Assembly (NCBI GenBank): GCA_016841675.1
Contig: JAENYQ010000021.1
Location: 1-44,513 of the forward strand
Origin: Desulfotomaculum sp.
Lineage (GTDB): Bacteria; Bacillota; Desulfotomaculia; Desulfotomaculales; Desulfallaceae
DNA length: 44,513 nt
Direction of reading: 5' to 3'
Both the position numbers and the translations under genes were made by a program. The notes beneath the pieces are model-generated. The model worked only from the letters and a program-made list of their open reading frames with translations. It did not search any database and was not told the DNA's origin. Positions 32,670 through 36,775 of the stretch are shown one piece after another (within the stretch, counting starts at the first letter, position 1; every line of letters starts with the position of its first letter).

Positions 32670-33992
32670 TTAGAATCTGGACAGGTACTGGTCTACTTCC
32701 CACTGGTGCACCTTGGTACGGTAGTCGTCCCATTCCTTCATCTTGGCTTCCACGAGTTTTTCATAGATGTGCACGCCAAGGGCATCCTTAATTACTTCGT
32801 CCTTGGCCATCTCCGCGTAGGCTTCCTGCAGATTTTCCGGCAGGGATACGATGCCCAGTCCGTCCAGTTCGGACTGGGTCATCTGGTAAATGTTCCTGTC
32901 GCAGGCCGGCGGTGGTGCAATTTGGTTGTTGATGCCGTCCAGGCCGGCGGCCAGGCAGGCAGTCAGGACCAGGTACGGGTTGCAGGACGGGTCAGGATTA
33001 CGTAATTCAACCCGGGTGCTGGAGCCGCGTTTGGCCGGGATGCGAATTAGGGGACTGCGGTTGCGACCACTCCAGGCCAGGTAAACAGGAGCTTCATAGC
33101 CGGGCACCAGCCGCTTGTAAGAGTTTACAATGGGGTTGGTGATAGCGGCAAACGACCGGGCGTGCTTCAGCAGGCCGCCAATATAATAAAATGCCTCTTT
33201 GCTCATTTGCATTTCACCTTCGGGCTCATAGAAGGCGTTCTGATCACCCTTGAACAGTGACATGTTGGTGTGCATGCCGCTGCCGTTGATACCGAAAATC
33301 GGCTTGGGCATAAATGTGGCATGTAAACCATGCCGCTGGGCAATGGTCCGGACCACGAACTTAAAGGTCATAATCTTGTCGGCGGTATCCAGAGCATCGG
33401 AATATTTGAAGTCAATTTCATGCTGACCGGGGGCCACCTCGTGGTGAGAGGCCTCAATTTCATATCCCATTTGCTCCAGGGTAAGCACGACTTCCCTGCG
33501 GGCCTGCTCGCCAAAATCTACCGGTGAAAGGTCGAAGTAACCGGCGTTGTCGTGAGTTTGCAAGGTGGGTAAACCGTTTTCATCCAGCTTAAACAGAAAG
33601 AATTCCAGTTCCGGTCCCACCTGCATGGAGTAACCCAAGTCGGCCGCTTTGGCCAGGGCACGCTTTAAATTCAGCCTGGGGCAACCTGCAAAGGGAGTGC
33701 CGTCGGGATTGTAAATGTCGCACATTAGCCTGGCTACGCCGCCATCACGGGGTCGCCACGGAAACACCACGAATGTGTCGGGGTCCGGGCGCAGGTACAT
33801 GTCGGATTCTTCGATTCGGGCAAAACCGTCAATGGATGAACCGTCAAACATTAATTCCCCATCCAGGGCTTTTTCCAGTTGTTCAATAGTTATGGCTACG
33901 TTTTTCATAACGCCTACGATATCAGTGAACTGCAAACGGATAAACTTAACGCCCTTTTCCCTTGCCTCTGCTATAACACTTCTCTTGTCCAT
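32670..33992 (-). CDS. glnA: Glutamine synthetase type I (alpha subclass)
   Basis: A 440-aa protein from the ATG at 33992, chosen because AAAGGTGG lies 6 bases upstream (the frame is open to 34022 without an RBS). It has the beta-grasp N-terminus ([18 protein letters not shown]) and a catalytic domain with the metal and ATP motifs [25 protein letters not shown] and [16 protein letters not shown]. Length and the RNIYQM region fit GSI-alpha, so adenylylation at a NLYDLP-type tyrosine is not expected. It makes glutamine from glutamate, ammonium and ATP. Expression is likely controlled by the leader at 34055-34156: a sigma-A type promoter, two hexaloop hairpins and a terminator. It neighbours amt-glnB, forming a nitrogen block. 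Confidence 0.95.
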
Positions 33993-34054
33993 GAGAAACC
34001 ACCTTTCATTTTTTAAAATCATAATTTATTTTGCTAATGCGCCATAATTATCTC

Positions 34055-34156
34055 GGAAAAACACAAAGCCCTCGAAACAAGTTGTAAACCAACCTGTTTC
34101 GAGGGCATCTTTGCCTCTGCTTGGAATTGCAGTTTAATACACCGTTGTATTAAACT
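34055..34156 (-). promoter_or_regulatory. ANTAR-type antitermination leader of glnA
   Basis: Reading the minus strand, hairpin P1 (34156-34131) has a perfect 10-bp stem, AGTTTAATAC/GTATTAAACT, and hexaloop AACGGT. Hairpin P2 (34117-34101) has stem GAGGC/GCC(C)TC and hexaloop AAAGAT. Both loops have A1 and G4. The P2 3' arm overlaps the 5' arm of a 13-bp terminator (34105-34093 with 34081-34069, arms CCCTCGAAACA/TGTTTCGAGGG) followed by CTTTGTGTTTTT. Two such loops and overlap with a terminator is the target signature of ANTAR-domain antiterminators. Confidence 0.8.
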
Positions 34157-34708: not shown

Positions 34709-35047
34709 CTACACTGCTGCATCGCCTTTTTCGCCGGTGCGGATCCGAACAGCATTATCAATTTTAGTGATGAAAATTTTGCCGTCACCAATTGCCCCGG
34801 TTCTGGCCGCTTTTATAATCACCTCAACCACTCCGTCAGCATCCTGATCAGCTATAACAATTTCAATTTTTACCTTGGGCAGCAAGTTAATGCTGTATTC
34901 AGTACCGCGGTATACTTCTTTTCGCCCTTTTTGCAGCCCACAGCCCATTACCTGAGACACCGTCATGCCGTGAATCCCATGCTGGGACAGGCCCTCCTTG
35001 ATGTCCTCCAATACGCCGGGTCTGACAATAGCTTCTATTTTAACCAT
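34709..35047 (-). CDS. glnK: Nitrogen regulatory PII protein (GlnB/GlnK)
   Basis: A 112-aa PII protein. It begins MVKIEAIVRPGVLEDIKEGL, has the T-loop RGTEYSINLLPKVKIEIV with the conserved tyrosine at residue 51 (site of uridylylation in other bacteria), and the C-terminal signature GAIGDGKIFI. PII trimers bind ATP, ADP and 2-oxoglutarate, and the GlnK branch blocks AmtB when ammonium is high. The ATG at 35047 follows AAAGGA; a start at 35056 has no RBS. It lies 46 bases after amt on the same strand, the classic amtB-glnK pair, so control of Amt is the likely role. The symbol glnK is chosen from context; glnB is equally possible by sequence. Confidence 0.92.
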   Translation of the reverse strand: MVKIEAIVRPGVLEDIKEGLSQHGIHGMTVSQVMGCGLQKGRKEVYRGTEYSINLLPKVKIEIVIADQDADGVVEVIIKAARTGAIGDGKIFITKIDNAVRIRTGEKGDAAV

Positions 35048-35093
35048 GATCAGCATCCTTTCCCTTGAATTTTTAATATACTAACACATCTTA

Positions 35094-36377
35094 TTAAACG
35101 GAGTAAGCTTTTTCACTGTGCTCGTTAACGTCCAGGCCCATGGCCTCGCCTTCATCATCAACCCGCAGAGTGGTAATTGCGCCAACTACCTTAAGAATAA
35201 CAAAGGTCGCCACGCCAGCCAGCACGATGGTAGCACCTACACTGACAGCCTGAATGCCTAACTGTGTGGCATTGCCGTAAAATAGACCCTCGACACCTTC
35301 AGCCACAGAGAACAGCCCGGTAGCCAGGGCGCCCCATATGCCGCCAAGACCGTGAATGCCAAACACATCCAGGGCATCGTCGTAACCAAATTTAATTTTG
35401 ACCTGGCTAACCGCAAAGTAACAAAGTGCACCGGCCACAAAGCCGATAACCAGTGAACCCATGGGAGTTACGAAACCGCAGGCCGGTGTAATGGCTACCA
35501 GACCGGCGATAGCGCCGGAAGCCGCACCCAACATGGTAGGCTTGCCGTGCCGCAGCCACTCCGCCAATACCCAGGACATCACAGCCGCGCCGGCGGCAAC
35601 CTGGGTGTTTACAAATACACTGGCCGCCAAACCATTGGCACCCAGCGCGCTACCGGAATTGAACCCGAACCAGCCGAACCATAGCAAGGCTGCACCAATC
35701 ACCACGTAGGGTATATTGTGCGGCACCAAGCGTTCGGTGCCGTATCCTCTACGTTTACCCAACACAAGGGCGGCCACCAGGGCCGAAACACCGGAGGAAA
35801 TGTGCACCACGGTGCCGCCGGCGAAGTCAAGCGCGCCCAGTTCCATTAACCAACCGCCGCCCCAGACCCAGTGGCAGACCGGGTCATAAACCAGGGTGGT
35901 CCACAGTACCAGGAACAGCAGGTAAGCGGGGAAACGCATCCGCTCCACGATAGCGCCGGTAATCAGCGCCGGGGTAAGGATAGCAAACATCATTTGGAAT
36001 ACCATGAACAACTGGTGCGGAATGGTTCCGGATGGTTCCAGTCCCACACCGTTTAACGCAAAGAAACTCAGGTCGCCGATAAATTTACCGATATCCGAAC
36101 CAAAAGCCAGGCTATAACCATAAATCACCCACTGAATGGTAATCACGCCCAGGCAAATAAAGGACATCATCATCGTGTTGAGCACGTTTTTCTGGCGCAC
36201 CATGCCGCCGTAAAATAGGGCTATTCCGGGCACCATTAAAAAAACCAGGGCCGTTGAAATGATCATCCACGCTGTATCACCCGTATCGATGACTTCCTCA
36301 GCGGCCCAAGCAGACATGGGGAATATAAAGAGCATAATTAGTGCAAATAATGTAACTAAACCAAACCTGTTATTCAT
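35094..36377 (-). CDS. amt: Ammonium transporter Amt
   Basis: A 427-aa membrane protein with an N-terminal signal peptide (MLFIFPMSAWA-AEE, cut near residue 25) followed by about 11 helices. It has the family sequence DTAWMIISTALVFLMVPGIALFYGGM at the first helix and the pore histidine regions HWVWGGGWL and HGLGGIWGALATG. It conducts ammonium across the cytoplasmic membrane. The RBS AGGAGG is strong. glnK follows. Three tandem antitermination modules and a sigma-A type promoter precede it, so expression is probably induced under nitrogen limitation by an ANTAR regulator not present in this window. Confidence 0.95.
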   Translation of the reverse strand: MNNRFGLVTLFALIMLFIFPMSAWAAEEVIDTGDTAWMIISTALVFLMVPGIALFYGGMVRQKNVLNTMMMSFICLGVITIQWVIYGYSLAFGSDIGKFIGDLSFFALNGVGLEPSGTIPHQLFMVFQMMFAILTPALITGAIVERMRFPAYLLFLVLWTTLVYDPVCHWVWGGGWLMELGALDFAGGTVVHISSGVSALVAALVLGKRRGYGTERLVPHNIPYVVIGAALLWFGWFGFNSGSALGANGLAASVFVNTQVAAGAAVMSWVLAEWLRHGKPTMLGAASGAIAGLVAITPACGFVTPMGSLVIGFVAGALCYFAVSQVKIKFGYDDALDVFGIHGLGGIWGALATGLFSVAEGVEGLFYGNATQLGIQAVSVGATIVLAGVATFVILKVVGAITTLRVDDEGEAMGLDVNEHSEKAYSV

Positions 36378-36508: not shown

Positions 36509-36568
36509 AAAAAAATAAAGGCGCTTCAGTTAGGACATCAATGCCCTAAATAAAGCGCCTTTGCTTTA
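36509..36568 (-). promoter_or_regulatory. ANTAR-type antitermination module 3 of amt
   Basis: P1 (36568-36551): stem TAAAGC/GCTTTA, hexaloop AAAGGC. P2 (36548-36531): stem TAGGGC/GTCCTA with one G-T pair, hexaloop ATTGAT. Both have A1 and G4. Terminator: AAAGGCGCTT (36562-36553) pairs with AAGCGCCTTT (36526-36517), then A and seven T. The terminator uses the P1 loop and 3' arm and encloses P2, so the two folds exclude each other. Confidence 0.75.
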
Positions 36569-36571
36569 AAA

Positions 36572-36643
36572 TATAAAAAGGGGCTTGCGGTATGTTAATA
36601 CTTTACCGAAAAGGCCCCTCTGCCTGCCGCCCAACGTTGGACG
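36572..36643 (-). promoter_or_regulatory. ANTAR-type antitermination module 2 of amt
   Basis: P1 (36643-36628): stem CGTCC/GGGCG, hexaloop AACGTT. P2 (36625-36612): stem AGGC/GCCT, hexaloop AGAGGG. Both have A1 and G4. P2 overlaps the 5' arm of a terminator formed by GGGGC/GCCCC (36618-36614, 36584-36580) and CGGTA/TACCG, followed by TTTTTATATTTT. Confidence 0.75.
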
Positions 36644-36656
36644 AAAATATGTAGTT

Positions 36657-36735
36657 AAAATAAAAATACCCTTTGAGGTATATATCTTTAAACCTCAAAC
36701 GGCATCGTCGCCAACTGGATACAACAATGTATCCA
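36657..36735 (-). promoter_or_regulatory. ANTAR-type antitermination module 1 of amt
   Basis: P1 (36735-36716): stem TGGATAC/GTATCCA, hexaloop ATTGTT (A1, G4). P2 (36713-36700): stem TGGC/GCCG, hexaloop GACGAT (G4 kept, position 1 is G). Terminator TTTGAGGT/ACCTCAAA (36699-36692, 36679-36672), extendable by CC/GG into P2, followed by GGGTATTTTTATTTT. Confidence 0.7.
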
Positions 36736-36746
36736 AACTTGAATGA

Positions 36747-36775
36747 ATTATACAGTAGTCAATTATTAATGTCAA
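36747..36775 (-). promoter_or_regulatory. amt promoter, consensus sigma-A type
   Basis: TTGACA (36775-36770), a 17-base spacer and TATAAT (36752-36747) on the minus strand, a perfect match to consensus. Transcription would start near 36740, just before hairpin P1 of module 1. Confidence 0.85.

Follow-up and report, generated by a model that had tools for sequence, protein, structure and literature searches.

The leader of the amt-glnK transcription unit in the window (the whole 44.5-kb stretch of Desulfotomaculum DNA that was analyzed) most probably consists of three serial ANTAR-controlled transcription attenuators, the third of which is order-reversed, with one of its hairpins nested in the terminator loop (Table 1). 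We assign a probability of about 85% to this reading, which covers predicted protein binding, termination, read-through and signal. Antitermination of the ANTAR type, proposed in a preliminary description of this DNA, is backed by the loop signature, the covarying stems, the conserved overlap of hairpins with terminators, two ANTAR regulators and a nitrogen-gene regulon.

Table 1. Features of the amt-glnK and glnA units in the window (hexaloops are set between hyphens)
Feature	Position	Strand	Remarks
amt-glnK promoter, sigma-70-type, TTGACA-17-TATAAT	36747..36775	minus	12/12 consensus match
Module 1 P1 hairpin, GGATAC-ATTGTT-GTATCC	36717..36734	minus	sequence
Module 1 P2 hairpin, GGC-GACGAT-GCC, loop G1/G4	36701..36712	minus	sequence; A1 in relatives
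Module 1 intrinsic terminator and T-run	36657..36705	minus	P2 3' arm within terminator 5' arm
Module 2 P1 hairpin, CGTCC-AACGTT-GGGCG	36628..36643	minus	11/11 family leaders, covarying; covariance model match
Module 2 P2 hairpin, AGGC-AGAGGG-GCCT	36612..36625	minus	11/11 family leaders
Module 2 intrinsic terminator and T-run	36567..36621	minus	terminator 5' arm starts within P2 loop
Module 3 antiterminator-type hairpin, TAAAGC-AAAGGC-GCTTTA, first in order	36551..36568	minus	covarying
Module 3 partner hairpin, TTAGGGC-ATTGAT-GTCCTAA, within terminator loop	36530..36549	minus	covarying stem; nested class enriched; R3 match
Module 3 intrinsic terminator, AAAGGCGCTT/AAGCGCCTTT, and T-run	36509..36562	minus	5' arm starts in loop of first hairpin
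amt, ammonium transporter, controlled gene	35094..36377	minus	PF00909, E 1.3e-137
glnK, P-II protein, one unit with amt	34709..35056	minus	PF00543
Separate ANTAR-type attenuator before glnA	34068..34154	minus	weak covariance-model match 34117-34151
glnA attenuator P1, TTTAATAC-AACGGT-GTATTAAA	34154-34133	minus	
glnA attenuator P2, GGC-AAAGAT-GCC	34115-34104	minus	
glnA attenuator terminator	34106-34068	minus	
glnA, glutamine synthetase, target of the attenuator	32670..34022	minus	PF00120/PF03951

For comparison, amt loci were drawn from 60 genomes of the window's order, with 11 orthologous leaders in the window's family. The perfect promoter claimed earlier is confirmed, and its -35 and -10 elements are retained, or nearly so, in 10 of the 11 family leaders. 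The six hexaloops, listed in 5' to 3' order in Table 1, all carry G in position 4 (G4) and a C-G closing pair, and five carry A in position 1 (A1); each of the three terminators overlaps a C-G-closed hexaloop hairpin. The loops, stems and T-runs had been described previously and were all found in place on the minus strand, and the earlier count of G4 and A1 is borne out. About 130 nt separate the third terminator from the amt start. A TTAACA-17-TATATT promoter-like match that lies over the module 2 terminator (36598-36570) is probably coincidental. A strong Shine-Dalgarno-like stretch follows directly 3' of the last terminator in each of the 11 family leaders (window 36508-36429, minus strand, and L005-L014; e.g., GAGGAGGTG). 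In most of them, a short ORF of 3-26 codons opens with TTG 5-9 nt further on; it reads MKGLHSYLRQGDDADWWRYGFYI in the window, and the initial residues are alike in several leaders. This element may encode a leader peptide or serve as an mRNA-stabilizing ribosome site ahead of amt.

The hairpins of the amt leader are not explained by chance. The 276-nt leader contains two strict pairs of A1/G4 hairpins, a number reached in none of 3000 dinucleotide shuffles, and five strict hairpins, where the shuffles average 0.13; on neither strand does the window hold a further strict pair. A scanner for hairpin-terminator units detects three units in this leader, compared with 0.005 per shuffled leader (among 600 shuffled leaders, three contained a unit, never more than one each). 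A structured leader with terminators would also suit a small-molecule riboswitch or a T-box that is not the target of any ANTAR protein; however, the conserved positions are those of the ANTAR loop signature, and no Rfam family matched the amt leader at its gathering score in a search with the Rfam covariance models, which makes this alternative highly improbable. The matches obtained at relaxed thresholds (sok, miRNAs, telomerase RNA) were far below the gathering scores, belonged to irrelevant families and were rejected.

The preliminary description had proposed, as checks, an alignment of the amt leaders of relatives and a covariance-model search, and both turned out in favor of ANTAR-type antitermination. 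Compensatory stem changes were found in the pooled module alignment and in the orthologous alignments of modules 2 and 3; covariation of the module 1 terminator is weak among the orthologous leaders. In the pooled alignment, which was fitted to its model, 94.3% of the cells are paired and covariation is 0.549, compared with 0.205 for shuffled alignments and at most 0.151 for slid partners; the orthologous alignments were not fitted to structure. Modules 2 and 1 rank first and second in the 3.84-Mb genome in the search with model R2, the training set of which contained these two modules; model R1, trained without module 2 of the window, nonetheless detects it. In folding calculations that stop before the 3' arm of the terminator, each module, taken alone, forms its hairpins. 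With the 3' arm included, the terminator prevails in each case, with predicted energies of -29.0, -25.4 and -28.5 kcal/mol for modules 1, 2 and 3, the respective two-hairpin states being at -12.4, -12.2 and -12.7 kcal/mol. Such predicted competition is the geometry expected of a protein-stabilized antiterminator, although energies alone are no proof of function.

Modules 1 and 2 display the published order of elements, with P1 upstream and P2 downstream, the latter overlapping the intrinsic terminator. Module 2 is canonical and intact in all 11 family leaders, with compensatory changes, and the earlier claim that one of its loop hairpins overlaps the terminator arm holds. In module 1, the overlap had likewise been recognized but was thought to span only 2-3 bases, whereas the terminator helix actually penetrates further into P2 (ATGCC-G-TTTGAGGT/ACCTCAAA-G-GGTAT, with a single G.G mismatch); in the relatives, this pairing is unbroken or nearly so. 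Position 1 of the P2 loop is G in the window and A in all eight aligned relatives. A P1 hairpin with a comparable A1/G4 loop is found elsewhere only in L005 and L012, so that three family leaders have a good P1.

Module 3 is organized differently. Here, too, a loop hairpin overlaps the terminator, as claimed earlier, but the supposed canonical hairpin pair did not hold up: it is the first hairpin that overlaps the terminator, and the second one lies wholly inside the terminator loop, such that the P1-P2-terminator order is absent. The reversal was revealed by misplaced stems in a joint MAFFT alignment of all module types, in which the first hairpin of module 3 was placed on the P2 of the others; canonical and nested modules were then modeled separately (R1 and R2 versus R3). 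Because the terminator-sharing hairpin precedes its partner and this partner sits in the terminator loop, we class module 3 as a variant rather than a canonical member of the ANTAR RNA family, with a geometry that appears to be new. The first hairpin, the inner hairpin and the terminator all show compatible variation among the orthologous leaders. The loop of the first hairpin has G1 in 7 of 10 relatives. In five leaders of one genus (g4), the inner loop is AATTAT and lacks G4, with the stem retained; a general requirement for the inner hairpin is therefore less well supported.

This retention of the stem, along with the fact that stable inner hairpins can strengthen terminators, would agree with the nested hairpin merely stabilizing the terminator loop and having no ANTAR role. 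We consider this explanation rather doubtful in view of the distribution of the nested form. When 56 units were sorted by the position of the partner hairpin, 24 were canonical, 7 nested, 1 both, and 24 had no strict partner; nested units with a C-G-closed R1/G4 hexaloop (R, A or G) thus account for 8 of the 56, far above chance given that just 0.43% of shuffled terminator loops qualify. The nested-form covariance model R3 recovers such hexaloops in several more leaders. They precede Amt copies in four genomes (G002, G029, G047 and G057), a sarcosine-oxidase-like gene in G010, and a urea or branched-chain-type ABC transporter gene in G055 (gene names assigned by eye), so that the form recurs across several families and, beyond amt, at further nitrogen genes. 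All of these nested units follow an earlier unit, and in every leader with preceding units the nested one comes last (in L015, the earlier unit was spotted by eye only); the chance of this is about 0.002, as a rough estimate from the count of separate lineages, many of the leaders being related and the cases not independent.

The differences in conservation between the modules raise the alternative that ANTAR switching is confined to module 2, with modules 1 and 3 being mainly plain terminators or decaying copies. Module 2 is indeed the most conserved, module 1 is largely gone from L011 and L014, and the loss of G4 from the inner loop of module 3 points in the same direction. Against this, nine family leaders maintain the G4 hexaloop of module 1 P2 together with its overlap with the terminator, the AAGC/GCTT pairing of the first hairpin of module 3 is retained even though its 5' side is outside the terminator, and other families, too, have nested as well as serial units; hence, a switch confined to module 2 seems quite unlikely, and three ANTAR-controlled modules remain the preferred reading.

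In this order of bacteria, amt is as a rule preceded by serial ANTAR-type units, and the three units in the window are a good example of a common arrangement. At least one hairpin-terminator unit is present in 29 of 30 order-level amt leaders, at least two in 21, and three in 6; the 11 family leaders retain the three-module array wholly or partly. As a control, among 80 listed amt loci across bacteria and archaea, 72 have no unit. The preliminary description had considered a run of three unusual, which is not borne out by the frequency of leaders with two or more units, nor by the regulon of Desulfotomaculum acetoxidans, for which the main text of the original study gives at least 13 ANTAR sites over six transcription units (Ramesh 2012, PMC3369931), an average above one site per unit. 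According to the same text, the predicted targets include ammonium transporter, P-II and glutamine synthase genes, so that both the multiplicity of sites and the nitrogen targets are shared with the window; triple arrays, nested geometry and the position of nested units are not described in that main text. In the 30 leaders, 42 units have A1/G4 loops and 14 have G1/G4 loops; scanned for all other letter combinations together, the leaders yield very little, 12 in total. Retention of G4 with A or G in position 1 fits the structure of EutV, in which G4 stacks on Tyr164 and A1 makes no specific contact (PMC8934654).

An ANTAR protein encoded in the same genome was also to be expected under the earlier reading, and two response regulators that combine a REC with an ANTAR domain were found, both on contig C106 and each followed by a glutamine synthetase (GS) gene, in the order asnB ... 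regulator 1 - GS - glutamate synthase core - regulator 2 - GS. Hexaloop-terminator units were identified by eye on this contig before asnB, in the gap between regulator 1 and GS, before regulator 2, and in the gap between regulator 2 and GS; another unit precedes a NifV-like homocitrate synthase gene on contig C73 (identified by eye from the sequence). ANTAR genes are present in 56 of the 60 relatives. Just 5' of amt in L025 lies the tail of an ANTAR gene, with a hexaloop-terminator unit in the gap. In G029, canonical and nested units precede amt (L152, L164); no ANTAR domain was found in this assembly, which is possibly incomplete. In two relatives, two serial ANTAR-type units were also observed before a nifH-like gene, the product of which starts with MRRQVAIYGKGG or MRQIAIYGKGG (L023, 3390-3560; L159, 2000-2190). 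Near-palindromic repeats (TTCTGAGCGCAGCGAAGAATCT...AGATCCTTCGCTACGCTCAGGATGACA) are interspersed in intergenic DNA at about 34370-34300 of the window, in the glnK-glnA gap, and in L003 (5650-6130 and 11000-11280).

The closest solved structures to the regulators are Rv1626 (1s8n) and EutV (6wsh). By alignment, the residues of EutV that contact the hexaloop appear to be mostly kept in regulator 2 (R142, K143, K149, E160, M172, N173 and R175), with substitutions of F for Y164, R for K147, Q for R168 and S for R177; regulator 1 lacks R175 and R177 (EutV numbering). The receivers of both regulators have a D-x-D motif in place of D-D-E, with Asp at the acceptor position and the second acidic residue absent. 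Among homologs in other genomes, the receivers in L126, L132 and L134 have H or E at the phospho-acceptor position, which suggests phosphorylation-independent control in a part of the regulator family. A search of the genome with the HisKA_2 family, typical of the sensor kinases PdtaS and EutW, gave no match. Given these atypical receivers and the lack of a HisKA_2 match, a kinase-independent input to the regulators, perhaps through the adjacent glutamine synthetases, would be a fair guess, no more.

As the polymerase passes each module, a hexaloop hairpin is predicted to fold that incorporates the 5' arm of the terminator ahead. If no active ANTAR protein is present, the terminator 3' arm would displace the hairpin and transcription would stop; with the protein on the hexaloop, the hairpin would be held and the polymerase would read through. 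Expression of amt and glnK would then require passage of all three gates, of which modules 1 and 2 would work as the published P1-P2-terminator type and module 3 as the nested type. A steep, low-leak switch is a plausible outcome of such an arrangement. The best candidates for the regulator are the two ANTAR proteins encoded in the genome, acting singly or both, and the switch would answer nitrogen status and would also cover glnA, asnB, nifV and the regulator/GS cluster.

Structural work showed that a single ANTAR dimer is unable to contact the two loops simultaneously, and in the recruit-and-hand-over model (Walshe 2022, PMC8934654), P1 is proposed to recruit the protein and hand it over to P2, which requires a recruitment hairpin ahead of the antiterminator hairpin. 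The nested form has no such hairpin of its own, which suggests that upstream modules serve it or else that the model is incomplete. It is conceivable, if speculative and on present evidence unlikely, that the array functions as a relay, in which ANTAR dimers are loaded onto the nascent RNA at the canonical modules upstream, and the nested module at the end takes over the protein already bound upstream or traveling with the polymerase; with no upstream recruitment hairpin belonging to the nested module, its inner hairpin would keep the dimer while the 3' arm emerges, and the regulators might be set through direct contact with glutamine synthetase or another partner, with no kinase. Such a relay would explain why the nested form is always last where other units precede it and, if true, would add a new mode to the ways in which ANTAR antitermination works.

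Antitermination by ANTAR proteins at nitrogen genes has precedents: the nasF leader of Klebsiella and the amiE leader of Pseudomonas are reportedly subject to terminator read-through under the control of NasR and AmiR, respectively, and AmiR is said to have a non-phosphorylated pseudo-receiver. In published descriptions, each of these leaders has a single module, and the sensor domains of NasR and AmiR differ from those of the regulators described here. With the eut RNAs of Enterococcus faecalis, modules 1 and 2 and the glnA leader share A1/G4 hexaloops and a second hairpin that overlaps the intrinsic terminator (PMC3369931, PMC8934654), and the genome likewise encodes an ANTAR response regulator. 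In contrast to the eut system, the amt leader has three modules, with module 3 reversed and nested, and the regulators differ from the EutVW pair in the receiver motif and in the lack of a HisKA_2 match. The tandem attenuators of the Salmonella mgtCBR operon resemble the amt leader in that more than one attenuator stands in series before one operon, but those rest on translation of leader ORFs (PMC3641672), whereas the attenuators described here are predicted to rely on protein-bound hexaloops.

A natural module with the reversed order, located behind upstream modules wherever these exist, permits a direct test of the hand-over model for the use of two hairpins by ANTAR proteins. The amt leader is also a compact natural case of three like attenuators in series, suited to measuring leak and steepness, and the units found across the order indicate a wide RNA-level nitrogen regulon that includes amt, glnK, glnA, nif, urea-type transport and sarcosine genes.

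Elsewhere in the window, a c-di-GMP-I riboswitch (Rfam RF01051, 69.7 bits; 42347-42260, minus strand) is located directly 5' of an HD-GYP-like gene, which is followed by a CBS-GGDEF-like gene (both named by eye).
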